From positions 1 through 27,140 of the IMG/VR virus record IMGVR_UViG_3300038701_000962: DNA of 27,140 nucleotides. One strand, written 5' to 3'. The position numbers and the translations under genes are program-made. Positions within the stretch are counted from its first letter, which is position 1. Every line of letters begins with the position of its first letter. Below the pieces are notes generated by a model. It saw only the letters and a list, made by a program, of their open reading frames with translations. It was not told where the DNA came from and ran no database searches. Positions 1 to 20,849 of this stretch are shown here, piece by piece. The stretch is from a virus.

Positions 1-127
1 GATAGCCGCACATAGCCCTGTTTTGTGGCTAGGGAAATGTTCTGTACACTCGAATCTAGCCTCTGGTATCGTATTCGTGTGAGGTGACGGCTACCGCCTT
101 CTTACAAGCGTCTAGGGCTGCAACCCG

Positions 128-238
128 TTAACGACGCGGCCAAGATCGACAGTGCGAAACTACTCGCTCCCATTTACCAAACCGAAACCGGATATATGAG
201 CAAACGCTCACCGGTTTCGGCCACTTGCAAGCTACCAT
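128..238 (-). CDS. Small Cys/Trp/Arg-rich protein, 36 aa, unknown
   Basis: The ATG at 238 follows a strong AGGAGGTG ribosome site with 5 nt spacing, which decides this start over a longer reading that begins with GTG at 355 and has no good ribosome site. The product is 36 aa, basic and aromatic, with three cysteines and three tryptophans and a WPKPV segment near the start. I recognise no family. It lies on the minus strand downstream of the chimeric gene, with about 170 nt of noncoding DNA and a hairpin (261-278) between them. It may be a small metal- or nucleic-acid-binding protein, but that is inferred from composition only. Confidence 0.5.
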   Translation of the reverse strand: MVACKWPKPVSVCSYIRFRFGKWERVVSHCRSWPRR

Positions 239-260
239 AATGGCACCTCCTGTGTGGATT

Positions 261-389: not shown

Positions 390-431
390 AGCTTGATGTT
401 TTCAAGCTTTTCAACGGGCCGGATCCGGCCC
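390..431 (-). other. Two inverted repeats at the 3' end of the chimeric gene
   Basis: AGCTTGA-N5-TCAAGCT (390-408) is a perfect 7-bp hairpin just past the stop codon of the chimeric gene. GGGCCGGATCCGGCCC (416-431) is a perfect 16-bp palindrome inside its last codons. Only the plus-strand side of the first hairpin has a short T-run, so termination of the minus-strand transcript here is possible but weakly supported. The palindrome may mark a recombination junction. Confidence 0.35.
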
Positions 432-998
432 ATCCTGCTTGAAAACTATAGGTTTTTTTATCTTTTGCCACAGTTCCGGATCCGGTTCGGATCCAAGCTT
501 TTTGCCCCCAAGTGTCTTCATGAAAGCGTTTCCGCCTTCAGATTTTCGACCCAGCGCTCGCGCCATGCCTCTCTTGTGAAAAACGCGCCTGCCATCCTCT
601 AGGACAAAGCAATCCAGTTGCAACCAGCCAATCGGCAAGATGCCACGGTGTGTTGCCCTTGGTAGGTTGTCGGTTACGTCAGCCCCCGTCGCGGTGCTGG
701 GAATGCCTTTCCGGGCGCTGGTGAGCATGAAGATGGCCAGAAGCCACTTTTGCAGGGCAAGGCGGCTTTCGGCCAGCACAGTGCCGGTGCGGACGCTGAA
801 ATGCTTGCGGCAGTCTTTGCAGCGGTAGGGCATTGGATTGTGGTCTTTGCACTCGGTCACGCTGACCGAACCACAGTGGCCGCAAACAGGTTCATTGCCC
901 CAGCGCTTTGCCTCAAAGAACTTGCGCGCCGCTTCTTCATCCGGAAACTTGCGGAAGAACTCAAAGGTAGACAGGGTTTCGGGCTTAGGGTTCGACAT
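411..998 (-). CDS. Chimeric protein: IS1595-type transposase N-terminus joined to P63C-like N-terminus
   Basis: 195 aa. Residues ~10-98 look like the start of an IS1595-family transposase: a zinc ribbon with CGHC and a second CKDC pair, the RKHFSVRTGTV block, then the following helix. The ISXO2-like catalytic DDE domain is absent. From about residue 100 the sequence switches to the opening of a P63C-type protein, marked by LPRATHRG, a CxVLEDG block, KRGMARALG and a PIVFK segment. It then stops, well short of the usual P63C length. The start is strong: AAGGAG lies 8 nt before the ATG. There is no frameshift at the joint, so it would be translated as one chain. It cannot be an active transposase. 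It may be a relic of an insertion and deletion, or a domesticated zinc-ribbon DNA binder. Confidence 0.7.
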   Translation of the reverse strand: MSNPKPETLSTFEFFRKFPDEEAARKFFEAKRWGNEPVCGHCGSVSVTECKDHNPMPYRCKDCRKHFSVRTGTVLAESRLALQKWLLAIFMLTSARKGIPSTATGADVTDNLPRATHRGILPIGWLQLDCFVLEDGRRVFHKRGMARALGRKSEGGNAFMKTLGGKKLGSEPDPELWQKIKKPIVFKQDGPDPAR

Positions 999-1020: not shown

Positions 1021-1063
1021 TGTGTAATCTAATTAGCCAATTTACGCAAGCGAAATCTGGCTA
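1021..1063 (-). promoter_or_regulatory. Candidate promoter with dyad operator for the chimeric gene
   Basis: On the minus strand TTGCGT (1044-1049), a 17-nt spacer and TACACA (1021-1026) form a moderate sigma70-like promoter that would start transcription just before the ribosome site of the 411-998 gene. An inverted repeat with arms TAGCCA (1034-1039) and TGGCTA (1058-1063), extended by A/T-rich flanks, encloses the -35 box. That is a typical operator placement. The promoter elements are imperfect. Confidence 0.35.
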
Positions 1064-1081
1064 GTTAAGTATATAGGCCCC

Positions 1082-1107
1082 AAAAAAACGGGCCATGATA
1101 GCCCGCC
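1082..1107 (-). terminator. Rho-independent terminator of the minus-strand small-gene operon
   Basis: On the minus strand GGCGGGC and GCCCGTT pair over a 7-nt loop and are followed by seven T. It lies about 100 nt past the stop codon of the DUF5681-like gene and before the promoter of the chimeric gene. It therefore separates the two transcription units. Confidence 0.75.
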
Positions 1108-2703: not shown

Positions 2704-2754
2704 CTGTCTGTCTCCTGTGGATGGTAGTAATCCTGAAGGACCACAATCGATATC

Positions 2755-2943
2755 TCAATCGGCTCCGGCGGCGTCTAGCCACTCTATAACGTCTCCCCCG
2801 AGAGCATTTATTTCGTCACAGACTTCGGAGATTAGGGGTCTGTACGAGGCCGCAAGTGCCTCACGACCCATCAATCTATGATGGCGTTCATTGGACACCA
2901 GGCCGGTCAGGCGGTCGAAAAGTTGATCTGCGGTCGCGGTCAT
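2755..2943 (-). CDS. Small acidic unknown protein, 62 aa, first gene of the operon
   Basis: The frame is open further upstream, but the start is set at the ATG at 2943 because it carries the GGAGACAGACAG leader shared with the next two genes. The product is helical and acidic, with a SNERHHRLMGREAL segment and a C-terminal IEWLDAAGAD. No family is recognised. A candidate TTGAC promoter lies 34-62 nt upstream, making this the first gene of the leftward operon. Confidence 0.55.
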   Translation of the reverse strand: MTATADQLFDRLTGLVSNERHHRLMGREALAASYRPLISEVCDEINALGGDVIEWLDAAGAD

Positions 2944-2976
2944 CTGTCTGTCTCCTGTTAGCGTTTCCTTGAACCC

Positions 2977-3005
2977 TTGATGCCATGCGGCGCGGGGCGG
3001 GTCAA
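2977..3005 (-). promoter_or_regulatory. Candidate promoter for the leftward small-gene operon
   Basis: On the minus strand TTGACC (3000-3005), a 17-nt spacer and CATCAA (2977-2982) precede the first gene of the operon. The -35 box matches the strong TTGAC boxes found elsewhere in the window at the same spacing. The -10 box is poor. Confidence 0.35.
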
Positions 3006-3250
3006 GCGGTTTTTTTAAGGATAGCACAGAAAAGATGTTGCAATTATGCAACACTCGGAAGAAAGACCAATGGGACAAAGGGTTTATACTCTACTATAGT
3101 ATAATAGTTAAATAGTAGTTTTTTTTAGTTATACTCCAAATAGAGGTAAAACAGTCTTTACGTAAGGTGGGTATCCTATAGGTATTTCTCTTAGAGTATA
3201 TCTATTTAAGGGCCACTATCCTACTATTTTGACTTTTTTGCCGATTTAGT
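3006..3250. other. AT-rich noncoding region with dyads; possible control region or origin
   Basis: No gene is supported between 2944 and 3309. The core is far more AT-rich than the rest of the window. It contains GTTGCA-N4-TGCAAC (3037-3052), CTACTA...TAGTAG (3091-3118) with TATAAT-like strings between the arms, a CCTATAGG palindrome (3175-3182), and a 10-nt direct repeat CACTATCCTA at 3214-3223 and 3295-3304. It lies next to the primase-helicase gene. An origin of replication or an operator cluster is possible. No DnaA-box array was recognised. Confidence 0.5.
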
Positions 3251-5686: not shown

Positions 5687-6463
5687 ATGCTAGAAGATGC
5701 AACCGCCGCACCGGCGGGCAAGTCCCCATTGATCTTGACGATCTGCGGGGACGCGGGAAGCGGGAAGACAAGCCTTGCGGCGACGTTTCCCAATCCGTTT
5801 ATCATCCGCACACAAGGCGAGGCCATGCCGCGCGACATTGCCACGGACAAAGCGCCGAAGGGTCTTGCGCCGCTTGGCGGAAAGCGGGCAAAGGTTGGCG
5901 ATGTTGATATTTGGGATGAAAGCGAACTGTTTGATCAGCTAATGGCGCTACTTCGTGAGGATCATGATTTTCAGACGTTGATCGTAGATAGCGTCACGGG
6001 TCTAGAGGCTCTTTTCGTGGATAATATCCTTGCGGTGCAGCCGCCAAAGCAGCGCACGATGAACAGCGCGGGAAGCGGATACGGCAGCGCATGGGATATG
6101 GTTGCGGCAAAGCATTCCCGTGTCAAGAAAGCGGCGGAATTGCTGCGCGACCGTAAGGGGATGAATGTTGTTTTCATCTGCCATGTTGATGTAAACCGGA
6201 TGGACCCGCCGGAGGGGGAGGCTTATACCAAATACGATCTGCAATTGCACAAGAAAACCGCACCGATTTACACGAACAATGTCGATGTGGTCGGCATGGT
6301 GAAGCAAGAGACAATCGTGATGGAAGGCGGAAAGGCAAAGTCAACCGGCGCGCGTCTATTGTCTGTTGCAATGACGCCAGCTAATGTGTCGAAAAACCGT
6401 TTGGGCATTGAGAAAGACTTGCCCGTAATCAAGGGTGAAAACCCGTTTGAGGAGTATATCTGA
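5687..6463 (+). CDS. Sak4-like RecA-fold ATPase, 258 aa
   Basis: This is a RecA-type ATP-binding protein of the kind that phages use in single-strand annealing or recombination (Sak4/AAA_24 group). The Walker A motif GDAGSGKT lies at residues 21-28. A Walker B-like strand TLIVDS at 97-102 has Asp101, and a later strand VVFICHVD is typical of the fold. Length fits the family. An AGGAGG ribosome site lies 6 nt before the ATG. It is the first gene of the rightward operon and is followed at once by an ssDNA-binding protein and a YqaJ exonuclease, the standard partners. Family-level function is known. Its exact loading activity is inferred. Confidence 0.85.
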   Translation: MLEDATAAPAGKSPLILTICGDAGSGKTSLAATFPNPFIIRTQGEAMPRDIATDKAPKGLAPLGGKRAKVGDVDIWDESELFDQLMALLREDHDFQTLIVDSVTGLEALFVDNILAVQPPKQRTMNSAGSGYGSAWDMVAAKHSRVKKAAELLRDRKGMNVVFICHVDVNRMDPPEGEAYTKYDLQLHKKTAPIYTNNVDVVGMVKQETIVMEGGKAKSTGARLLSVAMTPANVSKNRLGIEKDLPVIKGENPFEEYI

Positions 6464-16007: not shown

Positions 16008-16432
16008 TCCTACACGCACGAAAACTACATCCCGCCGCCGCATTGCCGCGCTTTGCCACGTCGCAAGCCGCTTGCTTTGACCTAACAGCCGTTTCGCGTG
16101 GGCCGGTAAATGGCCGATCTAGGGTTTACTCCACCGGATTTGCTCTAGATATTCCGAAGGGGTATTATGTAGAACTCTACATTCGCAGCGGGCTTGCGTT
16201 CAATCGGGACTTCATTCTAGCGAATGGGGTTGGCATTATTGACGCTGATTTCACGGGGGAGGTTAAATGCAAACTTGCCTACCTTGGCGACGGCTTGCCG
16301 GATTGGCCTATGCCGGGGGATCGGATTGCGCAAGGGCGATTGGTGCGAATGTCGAAAACGCAAATTGAATGGACTACGGAACAAAAGGAAACAGAACGTG
16401 GGGAAAACGGATTTGGCAGCACGGGGCGATAA
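16004..16432 (+). CDS. dut: dUTP diphosphatase (trimeric dUTPase), 142 aa
   Basis: The enzyme hydrolyses dUTP to dUMP, keeping uracil out of phage DNA and feeding thymidylate synthesis. All five dUTPase motifs are visible: ACFDL (~23-27), RSGLAF (61-66), GVGIIDADFTGEVK (75-88, catalytic Asp80), GDRIAQ (105-110) and the flexible arm RGENGFGSTG (132-141). Length is typical of the homotrimeric type. It starts at the ATG at 16004, coupled to the upstream gene, and overlaps the ribonucleotide reductase gene by 35 nt. Confidence 0.92.
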   Translation: MILHARKLHPAAALPRFATSQAACFDLTAVSRGPVNGRSRVYSTGFALDIPKGYYVELYIRSGLAFNRDFILANGVGIIDADFTGEVKCKLAYLGDGLPDWPMPGDRIAQGRLVRMSKTQIEWTTEQKETERGENGFGSTGR

Positions 16433-18185
16433 CGGAAGCCCGTTTCAGCAGGCAATCTCTGAACAGATTTGGGATATGAAATACCGCCTGAAAACGCAAG
16501 ACGGTATGCCGGTTGACTTGGACGTAACAGACACATGGCGGCGCGTTGCCAAGTCGCTTTCTGCACTTGAGCCGGAATGGGAGGATGAGTTTTACCGTGT
16601 TCTTGAGAGTTTCGCGTTTATCCCTGCGGGGCGCATTAATGCGGGCGCTGGCACTGATCGAAACGTGACACTGTTTAATTGCTTTGTTATGGGAACCGTG
16701 CCCGATAGCCTTACGGGCATCATGGACGCGCTGAAAGAGGCCGCAGTGACCATGCAGGCGGGGGGCGGCATTGGTTACGACTTTTCGACGCTGAGGCCGC
16801 AGGGAGCGCCTGTGCGTGGCGTTGCGGCGGATGCAAGCGGCCCGCTTACATTCATGGACGTTTGGGACGCCATGTGCAAAACCATCATGTCGGCAGGGGT
16901 GCGGCGTGGCGCGATGATGGCAACCATGCGTTGCGACCATCCCGACATTTTCCGCTTTGTTGACGCCAAGCGCGACCCGTTGCGACTGCGCAACTTCAAC
17001 GTGTCCGTGCTAGTGACTGATGAATTCATGGAGGCGGTGCGGGAAAACCGGCAATTCGATTTGCGATTTGAAGGCAAGGTGTATAAGACCGTTTCCGCGC
17101 GCGGGTTGTGGGATCACATTGCGCAAGCGACTTATGCGTATGCAGAGCCGGGCGTGATCTTTATTGATCGGATTAATCAGGATAACAACCTGAACTATTG
17201 CGAAACGATTGCCGCAACCAACCCATGCGGCGAACAGCCATTGCCGCCCTATGGTGCTTGCCTGCTAGGGTCCATTAACCTTTGCGCTATGCTTAACACT
17301 TACGGCATTGACCGCGATAAACTGCGGGACACGGTGCGTGTTGCGGTGCGGATGATGGACAACGTGGTTGACGTTTCGAAATTCCCGCTTCCCGCGCAAA
17401 AGGCAGAGGCGGAAGCAAAGCGGCGCATTGGATTGGGCGTGACGGGCGTAGGGTCTGCACTGGCGTTGTGCGGCATTGAATACGGGACGCAAGCCGCGCA
17501 AGATTGGCTTGATCAGGTAATGCAGGCTGTTGCGGTAGATGCTTATCAAGCGTCGATTGATTTAGCGAAGGAGAAAGGGCCGTTTCCTCTTTTCGACACT
17601 GATAAATTCCTTGCATCCGGCAACATGCGCAAAATGCCGGAGCACATCCGCGAACAAGTGCGGGAACACGGCATTCGAAACGCACTGCTTACATCCATTG
17701 CGCCAACGGGCACTATTAGCCTTTACGCGGGCAACGTGTCTAGTGGTATCGAGCCAATGTTTGCTCTTGAATATGAGCGCAAGGTGACGCAACGCGACAG
17801 CACAAAAACAACCGAAGTTGTGCGGGATTATGCGGTTGACAAGTGGCGGCGTGAGAATGGCGATACGCCTTTGCCGGATAGTTTTGTGACCGCGCAAACC
17901 TTGCGCCCGATTGACCATGTGAGAATGCAGGCTGTTGCGCAAAAGTGGGTTGATAGCTCGATTAGCAAGACGATCAATTGCCCCGAGGATATCAGCTTTG
18001 ACGACTTCAAGGATGTTTACACGGCTGCATGGGAATTGGGCTGCAAGGGTTGCACGACCTACCGCCCTAATGACGTGACAGGGAGTGTCTTGACCGCTAC
18101 GCCAGAACCCAAACAAGACGAAGGCGCGGCGTGTGAGATGCGTGTAGACCCTGACACGGGGCAATTGATCCGCACTTGTGAATAA
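16398..18185 (+). CDS. nrdJ: Class II (B12-dependent) ribonucleotide reductase, 595 aa
   Basis: The enzyme reduces ribonucleotides to deoxyribonucleotides using adenosylcobalamin. The thiyl site NPCGE has N275, C277 and E279. The redox pair is probably C95 (LFNCF) and C288 (PYGAC). GGIGYDFSTLRPQGAPV and GSINL are family hallmarks. The protein is shorter than large NrdJ forms and ends in a cysteine-containing tail (RTCE) after GCKGCTTYRP. The GTG start at 16398 follows AAAAGGA by 8 nt; an earlier reading lies inside the dUTPase gene. No small subunit gene is present, as expected for class II. Activity would depend on host cobalamin. Confidence 0.88.
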   Translation: MGKTDLAARGDNGSPFQQAISEQIWDMKYRLKTQDGMPVDLDVTDTWRRVAKSLSALEPEWEDEFYRVLESFAFIPAGRINAGAGTDRNVTLFNCFVMGTVPDSLTGIMDALKEAAVTMQAGGGIGYDFSTLRPQGAPVRGVAADASGPLTFMDVWDAMCKTIMSAGVRRGAMMATMRCDHPDIFRFVDAKRDPLRLRNFNVSVLVTDEFMEAVRENRQFDLRFEGKVYKTVSARGLWDHIAQATYAYAEPGVIFIDRINQDNNLNYCETIAATNPCGEQPLPPYGACLLGSINLCAMLNTYGIDRDKLRDTVRVAVRMMDNVVDVSKFPLPAQKAEAEAKRRIGLGVTGVGSALALCGIEYGTQAAQDWLDQVMQAVAVDAYQASIDLAKEKGPFPLFDTDKFLASGNMRKMPEHIREQVREHGIRNALLTSIAPTGTISLYAGNVSSGIEPMFALEYERKVTQRDSTKTTEVVRDYAVDKWRRENGDTPLPDSFVTAQTLRPIDHVRMQAVAQKWVDSSISKTINCPEDISFDDFKDVYTAAWELGCKGCTTYRPNDVTGSVLTATPEPKQDEGAACEMRVDPDTGQLIRTCE

Positions 18186-18246: not shown

Positions 18247-19047
18247 ATGACTATCACTGCAAAGATCATCGCGGATAGCGTGGCGGATGGATGCCCGCGC
18301 TTGACCACTATGCAACTGCGCTACCCGCGCTTTATTCACTCAGAGGTTATGACCCACCGCGCGTTTAGTCGCAATGCTTCTAGCAGCCGCGCCATCCCTG
18401 TGGAGCGCCTTATTCAAGACGTTCTAGACGATCCGGCAATGCCGATTTATTGGGGTAGCAACAAGCCGGGGATGCAGGCGGGGGAGGAAGTATTTTGCAA
18501 AGATGACGCAAAGAAGGTTTGGCAGTCTGGTTTGCACAGTTCTTTAAGCTGTGCGCGGCTGATGACTGAGATGGGCCTTCACAAGCAGATCGTAAACCGC
18601 ATTCTTGAGCCATACGCGCATATCAACGTTTTGGTGACCGCGACGGACTGGGATAACTTCTTTGCGCTTCGTGACCATCCCGACGCGCAACCTGAGATTG
18701 CGGCGCTTGCACGGGCCATGAAGGAAGCTATGGCGGAAAGCACCCCCGAATGGCTAGACCCGCGCGACTGGCACTTGCCATATACAACCGATTATGACCG
18801 CGCCGGAGATATTGCCGTTGCCAAGGCTGTATCCGCCGCACGTTGCGCAAGTGTCAGCTATAAGACGGTAGACGGCAAGCCCATGACGGTTGACAAGGCG
18901 CTCAAGATATACGATAAGCTGGCGGGAAGCGACCCTATCCATGCAAGCCCGTTTGAGCACATCGCGCGGCCTGCACCGGAAGGCGGAAAGGGTTGCCGTA
19001 ACTTTACCAACTGGCACCAATGGAGGCATGATGTCGAAGAAAATTAA
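18247..19047 (+). CDS. thyX: Flavin-dependent thymidylate synthase, variant signature, 266 aa
   Basis: ThyX methylates dUMP to dTMP with FAD, NADPH and methylene-THF. The fold is recognisable from RYPRFIHSEVMTHR, the long helical middle, and the end with HASPFEH and RNFTNWHQWR. The canonical RHRxxSxNE signature is altered here: residues 36-48 read THRAFSRNASSSR, so the first Arg and the Glu are replaced. This variant occurs in some phage ThyX-like proteins, so an active enzyme is likely, but changed substrate or product cannot be ruled out. A GGAGG site lies 7 nt before the ATG. It follows dUTPase and NrdJ, consistent with dTTP supply. Confidence 0.8.
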   Translation: MTITAKIIADSVADGCPRLTTMQLRYPRFIHSEVMTHRAFSRNASSSRAIPVERLIQDVLDDPAMPIYWGSNKPGMQAGEEVFCKDDAKKVWQSGLHSSLSCARLMTEMGLHKQIVNRILEPYAHINVLVTATDWDNFFALRDHPDAQPEIAALARAMKEAMAESTPEWLDPRDWHLPYTTDYDRAGDIAVAKAVSAARCASVSYKTVDGKPMTVDKALKIYDKLAGSDPIHASPFEHIARPAPEGGKGCRNFTNWHQWRHDVEEN

Positions 19048-19569: not shown

Positions 19570-19767
19570 ATGACCATTGACCCGCACGAACTAATCAACC
19601 TGCCCGGATATGGCAACGCTGAAAAGCAATTGCGCAAACATGGCAAGTGGCGTCTTGATCCAATTGACGAGATTGAAAACGCGATAGGTGACTTGGAAGT
19701 TGCAATAGACATGGCGCAAAACGCAAAATACGAAATTGAAAAGAAATGGAGGATGCTGAACAAATGA
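19570..19767 (+). CDS. Small helical protein, 65 aa
   Basis: The start is set at the ATG at 19570, just past the previous stop codon, because the upstream extension of the frame overlaps the Cys-rich gene. After an NLPGYGNAEKQL segment, a long charged helix (EIENAIGDLEVAIDMAQNA) suggests a coiled coil. It is coupled to the clamp gene through an ATGA overlap. It could be a clamp partner, but this is inferred from position only. Confidence 0.5.
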   Translation: MTIDPHELINLPGYGNAEKQLRKHGKWRLDPIDEIENAIGDLEVAIDMAQNAKYEIEKKWRMLNK

Positions 19768-20849
19768 AACTGACCATCGCAAAGGAAACGCTTGCCGCAG
19801 GGCTTGCAAAAGTGGCGGGTATTGTGGAAAAGAAAACCACAATTCCGCTTCTTTCCAATATCAAGATCGAAGCGACACCGGATGCCTTGACGCTTACCGG
19901 CACTGACCTTGACATTGAGGCAAAAACCCGCCTTGATGCGGACATTGAGCGGGAAGGCGTGACTACGGTTTCCGCCGATATCCTTGCCAATCTGGTAAAG
20001 CGGTTCAAGGCAGGTTCTCTTGTAACTCTTGATTATGACGGGGCGCGGCTTAACGTGTCTAGCGGCAAATCCCGTGTTGACTTCGCCACGCTGTCCGCAG
20101 ATGAATATCCGTCATTGTCCGATGTGGAGGACGGCGTTACGTTCACTGCGCCCGCAAGTGATCTGGCGCGGATGTTTGGCAAAACCGCGTTTGCAGTGTC
20201 AAACGAGGAAACCCGCTATTACCTCAATGGCGTGTATTTTCACCCCGGCGATGACGGGCTAACCGCAGTTGCCACGGACGGGCATCGGGTGGCGGTTGCG
20301 TGGTCTGATACTAAAGTGGACTTTCCCGGCGTTATCGTTCCGCGTAAGGCGGTTGCGGAGTTGCGCAAGGTGCTGGATATTGGCGATGTTGCGGTGACTG
20401 TGACAGATCGTAAAATCCGGTTTGACCTAGGCGATACGGTTATCACGTCCAAAGTGATCGACTACACATACCCCGATTATCGGCGCGTTATCCCGCAGGG
20501 ATTGCCGGATACGTTCCGGGCCGATGCTAAGGCCCTTGCGGGCGCGTCCTCGCTTGTTGCCATGGTGTCAGAGGAAAAGGTGAGGGCGGTCACGGTGGAT
20601 GTGTCTAGCGGCGCTGTGCGGCTGTCTAGCGGAGGCCAGCACCATGCAGAGGACGAGGTAGAAGCGGACGTGACCGGCGGCGGCGCGGTTATGGGGTTTA
20701 ACTCGAAATACCTTGCGGACGTGCTAGCGCAAGCGGATGGCGGGGACGTTGACGCGGCATATGACGCTAAAAATGTGCAATCGCCAATCGTTATCACTGC
20801 GACTGAAGACGCGCAGTTTCTGGCGGTTGTAATGCCGATGCGGGTTTAA
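19764..20849 (+). CDS. dnaN: DNA polymerase III beta sliding clamp, 361 aa
   Basis: The protein is a ring-shaped processivity clamp for the replicase. It is full length for a bacterial beta subunit, which has about 366 residues in E. coli. The hallmarks are visible: EKKTTIPLLSNI near the start, GTDLDIEA, VDFATLSADEYP, a TRYYLNGVYF strand, ATDGHRVA, VIDYTYPDYRRVIP and the terminal MPMR segment, which forms part of the partner-binding pocket. The ATG overlaps the upstream stop codon, with GGAGG 11 nt before it. No polymerase or clamp loader is encoded in the window, so it probably serves host Pol III or other clamp-binding proteins. Confidence 0.92.
   Translation: MKLTIAKETLAAGLAKVAGIVEKKTTIPLLSNIKIEATPDALTLTGTDLDIEAKTRLDADIEREGVTTVSADILANLVKRFKAGSLVTLDYDGARLNVSSGKSRVDFATLSADEYPSLSDVEDGVTFTAPASDLARMFGKTAFAVSNEETRYYLNGVYFHPGDDGLTAVATDGHRVAVAWSDTKVDFPGVIVPRKAVAELRKVLDIGDVAVTVTDRKIRFDLGDTVITSKVIDYTYPDYRRVIPQGLPDTFRADAKALAGASSLVAMVSEEKVRAVTVDVSSGAVRLSSGGQHHAEDEVEADVTGGGAVMGFNSKYLADVLAQADGGDVDAAYDAKNVQSPIVITATEDAQFLAVVMPMRV

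Follow-up and report, generated by a model that had tools for sequence, protein, structure and literature searches.

A probable decayed copy of a two-gene IS1595-family transposon in a phage genome, and its relatives with apparently exchangeable passenger genes

The chimeric reading frame and its surroundings

The DNA analysed here, a virus record 27,140 bases long (the window), carries on its minus strand an open reading frame of 195 amino acids with an ATG start (411..998 in the list of open reading frames). An AAGGAG ribosome site lies at 1012-1007, 8 nt 5' of the ATG, so that the intact frame and ribosome site named in a preliminary description of this DNA were both recovered. The first 101 codons (696..998, minus strand) were recognised by Pfam and by identity as the N-terminus of an IS1595-family transposase, with the Zn_ribbon_IS1595 domain at residues 19-66 (E 5.7e-11, above the cut-off), the zinc ribbon cysteines C39, C42, C60 and C63, and a match to PHROG 25593 over residues 5-102 (E 3.6e-14). 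This half is 67-87% identical to the intact transposases of six aligned viral loci and up to 95% identical to transposases in genomes. The helix-turn-helix region and the DDE domain are missing from it, with Pfam detecting no ISXO2-like DDE catalytic domain in the chimera, a deletion relative to two intact elements from Oceaniglobus trochenteri (L028) and a Rhodovulum MAG (L026). Codons 104-195 (411..689, minus strand) form a truncated N-terminal region of P63C type that starts just past the leader described below, as judged from identity to L028 and L026 and from PHROG 2384, the N-terminal part of which matches residues 95-188 (E 1.7e-11); a full P63C passenger also matches PHROG 2384 (E 1e-96). 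The C-terminal P63C domain (PF10546) was found by Pfam in the L028 passenger and is absent from the chimera. The frame at 411-998 is a genuine chimera of the zinc-ribbon end of an IS1595 transposase and the start of a P63C-type protein, much as it had been drawn beforehand, with an IS1595 N-terminus devoid of the DDE domain at residues ~10-98 and a P63C-type start from ~100 that ends early. The zinc ribbon by which IS1595 membership was judged is present in the window copy; because no DDE domain was found in it, the copy can only be called a derivative of the family.

The two halves meet at 694..697 (minus strand), where a joint near position 700 had been anticipated. The alignment has a GCAC microhomology at this point; a comparison in L028 coordinates shows that 692 bp have been lost from a GCAC tetramer in the transposase to a second one in the passenger, which brings transposase codon 101 in frame with the passenger just past its leader. 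A second joint (411..421, minus strand) is a probable deletion of ~390 bp at GGC(C), aligned to L026 positions 5263 and 5646, with a frameshift that stops the reading frame after PDPAR, the match to L026 beyond the joint being weak. With a truncated passenger and a second deletion, the decayed remnant that had been offered as one option holds.

Further parts of the element were recognised on either side, all on the minus strand. The left terminal inverted repeat, GGGGCCTATATACTTAACTAGCCA (1058..1081), adjoins a putative target 8-mer, GTTTTTTT (1082..1089), which is A/T-rich like the target duplications of relatives. Here the element meets the T tract of a phage hairpin resembling an intrinsic terminator (1089..1105), and at the corresponding place in a related phage (L166), behind the same upstream gene, stands a similar terminator with an uninterrupted T tract and no insertion. 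A preference of insertions for terminators was not shown when 36 distinct sites were compared with A/T-matched controls (hairpins below -12 kcal/mol in 19% versus 10%, p = 0.053). The 3' part of the element (84..248) aligns to L026 6094-6259, upstream of the L026 right inverted repeat, and contains a small open reading frame of 36 amino acids (MVACKWPKPVSVCSY...; 128..238) common to L026, L027 and L036. This small frame holds a perfect hairpin (CCGAAACCGG...CCGGTTTCGG), and frame and hairpin together are common to three Rhodobacterales elements (3 of the 99 loci analysed). The window shows the insertion from one side, the right inverted repeat and the second copy of the 8-mer lying outside the contig, which stops ~17 bp short of the right repeat if it is colinear with L026. 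Elsewhere in the phage genome, a full-length bacterial-type DNA sliding clamp was noted by eye at 19746-20849 (plus strand), near a ribonucleotide reductase-like frame (16224-18185) and a ThyX-like frame (18247-19047).

The position of the element at a contig end, where repeats break assemblies, raises the question of an artefact in which two elements, or an element and a phage, were joined during assembly. However, the window and L026 compare as colinear blocks (left repeat with the 5' part of the transposase, 5' part of the passenger, 3' region), in keeping with single intact elements. Both halves are closest to the same two elements, the joint bears microhomology and the target 8-mer matches the A/T-rich sites of relatives, all of which make an artefact highly improbable.

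Parent transposons carrying both halves

Separate searches with the two halves, as had been proposed, led from the N-half to transposases and from the C-half to a P63C-type protein, in different full-length proteins; in IMG/VR the former gave seven loci and the latter one. Full-length proteins of each half occur apart: intact transposases on the one hand and, on the other, an intact P63C-type protein that reaches 371 amino acids. As one known family the fusion was not met: no twin was found in IMG/VR, in a phage collection (11 records, the sole one to cover more than 80% of the chimera query, H1, being a full transposase by its list of open reading frames), among the 40 matches listed of 316 in plasmids (mostly annotated IS1595 transposases), or in the 394 Oceaniglobus-family genomes searched.

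At the six N-half loci listed, the stop of an intact transposase frame overlaps the start of a second gene behind it. This second gene is of P63C type in L006, L008 and L009, and inverted repeats (GGGACYTATATAC...CTAGCCA) with 8-bp duplications flank L008, L010 and L012. In L028 and L026 both halves of the chimera are adjacent, within an intact element of 2.1-2.4 kb that has terminal inverted repeats and exact 8-bp target duplications and in which the P63C gene overlaps the stop codon of the intact transposase. In L026 the genes are flanked by inverted repeats and an AAACTTTT duplication, and the transposase matches DDE_Tnp_IS1595 (E 4.8e-42) and NCBIfam transpos_IS1595 (E 2.3e-60). The transposase part of the window is 90% identical to these two elements over residues 4-106 (95% over 5-101), the passenger half is 78-81% identical to their passengers, and the rows closest to the window in the transposase tree are L028 and L026, both with P63C passengers. 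On these sequence comparisons, the halves of the chimera stem from the two genes of one IS1595-family transposon.

The preliminary description suggested that the chimera might have been made when an insertion sequence was lost, a history that would place the insertion beside an unrelated phage P63C gene. Free-standing P63C genes do occur in phages, and one of them (L013) is 60% identical to the C-half; the L028 and L026 passengers, however, are closer (81%) and already adjoin a transposase, which leaves this origin with hardly any credibility. The comparison points instead to both halves deriving from one transposon and being joined by an internal deletion.

The parent family was followed through 99 loci (80 from genomes, kept from 124 relatives, 18 from IMG/VR and one plasmid match), 37 of which have exact 8-bp duplications around elements of up to 3.4 kb, three longer pairings having been dropped beforehand. 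Intact relatives have the zinc ribbon with the DDE domain (L026) and inverted repeats with 8-bp duplications, and by these features they are IS1595-family elements. An open reading frame of at least 290 amino acids runs through the transposase N-part in 84 of the 99 loci, a count that includes L110, itself a fusion; a leader-bearing gene of at least 200 amino acids follows in 69 of the 84, with the standard 8-nt overlap in 59 of these. The 15 loci without one by this rule are L014, L032, L035, L078, L081, L094, L098, L100, L101, L102, L105, L110, L111, L112 and L113, among which L032 and L035 have P63C-type passengers with a variant leader missed by the pattern, an HsdS-like gene with a looser leader is found in L105, and nothing but short leader-like frames in L078, L081, L094 and L098. 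Some arrangements were noted by eye: in L094 (with its leader-like short frame) and L101, related transposons are followed by a GIY-YIG-like and methylase-like frame; an element in L007 (3182-4924) is nested in another IS1595-type transposase gene; and in L006, similar PemK/MazF-like frames (2708-3109 and 5910-6335) each follow a transposase or passenger gene.

Passenger bodies and the leader

The second gene combines a constant leader of ~25 amino acids with a swappable body (69 of 84 loci; P63C, BstA, RhuM, KilA-N and rarer types). Clustering of 72 passengers, of which three come from loci where the transposase frame is shorter, gave 39 of P63C type, 16 of class 1, nine RhuM, four KilA-N and the singletons L051, L062, L077 and L109. 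When one member per class was compared with Pfam, P63C, RhuM, KilA-N, Bro-N, ParA-like and D12 methylase matches were obtained, and none for the class 1 and L051 passengers. In PADLOC, class 1 was assigned to BstA through its tested member (L010, one of 16), a near full-length profile match (E 1e-118; PHROG 6287, E 1e-97). The RhuM passenger corresponds to the candidate PDC-S05 and the Bro-N protein to PDC-S13; the KilA-N protein matches BstA weakly in its C-terminal part, and L051 gives a weak match to a specificity subunit. The P63C passenger had no match in PADLOC, and for this reason a defence role of P63C passengers is inferred by association.

Mapped on an 82-row transposase tree, body class takes 30 changes (minimum 7; shuffled mean 30.5) and is therefore without phylogenetic signal, this being a quick tree with SH-aLRT support only and 25 of its 78 inner branches open. 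L084 (BstA class) and L085 (RhuM class) have 91% DNA identity between the left end and about passenger codon 25, past which the right inverted repeat alone is in common. The same pattern is seen between L026 (P63C) and L024 (BstA class), with the break at about codon 13; L026 and L028, both with a P63C body, are alike across the entire passenger. In the first two pairs the body is exchanged in one piece, which reaches from the leader to the right end. A leader profile of 24 columns, built on 24 rows selected among the 72 passengers, matched 10 times at E <=1e-5 in 388 genomes of the Oceaniglobus family, each time shortly downstream of a transposase match that shares its contig and strand; an eleventh match (E 2.2e-4) is a 44-aa frame at a contig start, and the remainder have E 0.008 or worse. 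The leader is thus a module of the IS1595-family parent transposon, where its role may be docking to the transposase or translation coupling.

With leaders removed, hhalign related the P63C and BstA bodies with a probability of 80 (E 1.4e-5), which is no more than suggestive of kinship; with leaders included, the score is inflated by the shared leader. The predicted fold of the L028 passenger (mean pLDDT 80, pTM 0.47) matched nothing in the PDB under E 0.001 (the best was DdrC, at 0.04), and no solved structure is close by sequence. A viral structure library gave four matches under 0.001, including p63 of phage Mx8 and a Bro protein.

Intact relatives would presumably behave as ordinary IS1595 elements, with a transposase that cleaves at the inverted repeats and produces 8-bp duplications. 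Their second gene is probably translationally coupled via the 8-nt overlap and would yield a leader-tagged protein, often resembling known or candidate phage-defence proteins. A broader proposal, put forward tentatively and somewhat doubtful as a whole, is that the parents spread exchangeable, mainly phage-defence-like proteins, in which capture of a body replaces all that lies behind a transposon-only leader of 25 amino acids, up to the right inverted repeat, and so fuses the body to that leader. Passengers would be tethered through this leader to the transposase or its DNA, P63C would be a BstA-like abortive-infection family, and loss of the DDE domain would repeatedly make zinc-ribbon/P63C chimeras, some becoming host genes. 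The interest lies in these parents, the window frame itself being probably an ordinary decayed copy: their cargo slot is swapped so often that its type no longer tracks the transposase tree, while the short leader is kept, and this makes cargo swapping by a small transposon, leader docking and P63C as a BstA-like defence testable. A literature search returned no paper joining IS1595 with P63C, nor P63C with KilA-N, and it is from this search that the architecture is taken to be absent from print.

Fate of the chimeras and likeness to known systems

Other chimeras of this kind were found. The viral locus L110 has a zinc-ribbon fragment, cut at the inverted repeat and fused to a P63C protein (PF10546, E 3.5e-34), although the zinc-ribbon model does not reach E 0.01 there. 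Six matches of listed length, and a seventh that is short, come from one MAG, G010 (Pseudomonadales Ast373_bin18). In L142, L151 and L153 a zinc ribbon, the leader and a shortened P63C domain make up an intact fusion, both domains being found by Pfam in L122 (the same gene as L142), the sole one tested; L155 stops past the leader, the zinc ribbon is absent from L157, in L159 the transposase is truncated and the passenger separate, and L160 is a fragment. The three intact fusions lie downstream of similar pal-like genes (by eye), so that either duplication spread them or the bin is a mixture of strains. In these three and in L155, the ends of similar pal-like genes with terminators were noted, each ahead of a fusion or its remnant. 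Pairs among L142, L151 and L153 have dN of 0.17-0.35 and dS of 0.71-1.33 over both parts, and pairs with L157 have dN of 0.34-0.47 and dS from 0.93 to saturation. The G010 fusions are under purifying selection, and such chimeras can therefore become functional; in 293 genomes of the order, no match outside G010 went past the N-terminal part of the query. The domesticated DNA-binding chimera of the preliminary description is thus credible in kind, given the several divergent in-frame fusions of one MAG with dN well below dS, and is unlikely for the window copy, which has the second truncating deletion.

If the window chimera were functional, its zinc ribbon might bind element ends, or its P63C part act on phage or host DNA, as a transposition repressor or a phage defence trait. 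Relative to L028 and L026, the window branch has 14 synonymous changes and 1 non-synonymous change in the N-half, and 19 and 10, respectively, in the C-half; the window also departs from its homologues at positions 54 and 81, where 85 of 99 have K and 85 of 98 have P, respectively. The intact frame, the ribosome site, the 14:1 ratio with retained zinc ligands, the three selected MAG fusions and the in-frame fusion of L110 to a complete P63C domain all speak for function. However, the passenger half ends ahead of the P63C domain, the helix-turn-helix region is gone, the C-half changes appear relaxed, and no second copy was found in the 394 family genomes, the phage collection or the 40 listed of 316 plasmid records, so that a functional product is considered unlikely. 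The truncated passenger, the changes at positions 54 and 81 and the 10:19 ratio point to recent decay. Against decay stand the N-half ratio, with all four zinc ligands kept, and the fusions of the same kind maintained in one MAG; there may have been selection on the zinc ribbon after fusion, and most of the window branch may predate the deletion.

What the window contains is very probably a decayed copy, with internal deletions, of a two-gene IS1595-family transposon that entered a phage genome just behind a phage terminator. The order and strand of its left repeat, of the 5' parts of transposase and passenger and of the 3' non-coding part are those of intact elements. The 692-bp deletion at the 4-bp microhomology fused transposase codon 101 to a passenger that then ends early, and would have arisen after insertion, by replication slippage or end joining. 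Being without a catalytic domain, the product is presumably not functional, and the strong ribosome site may still yield a zinc-ribbon fragment.

IS1595 elements can carry passenger genes. The intact relatives resemble IS1595 (ISXO2-like) elements in the zinc ribbon, the DDE domain, inverted repeats starting with GGG and 8-bp A/T-rich duplications, but the parents differ in a second gene with a constant leader, an exchangeable body and a start overlapping the transposase stop, and the window copy differs in having lost the DDE domain. Polymorphic toxins such as Rhs have a constant front and an exchangeable back, a design which the parents share, but with a constant part of ~25 amino acids that is transposon-borne. 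As regards P63C proteins (PF10546, PHROG 2384; p63 of Myxococcus phage Mx8), the C-half of the window corresponds to their N-terminal part; intact passengers carry PF10546, to which the transposon versions add the leader, whereas the window protein is without the P63C domain. For the BstA abortive-infection proteins of prophages, a prophage association is reported in PMC8585504, whose text does not mention IS1595. The 16 class 1 passengers constitute a body class whose tested member matches BstA, with the difference that class 1 is carried by a transposon, behind the leader.
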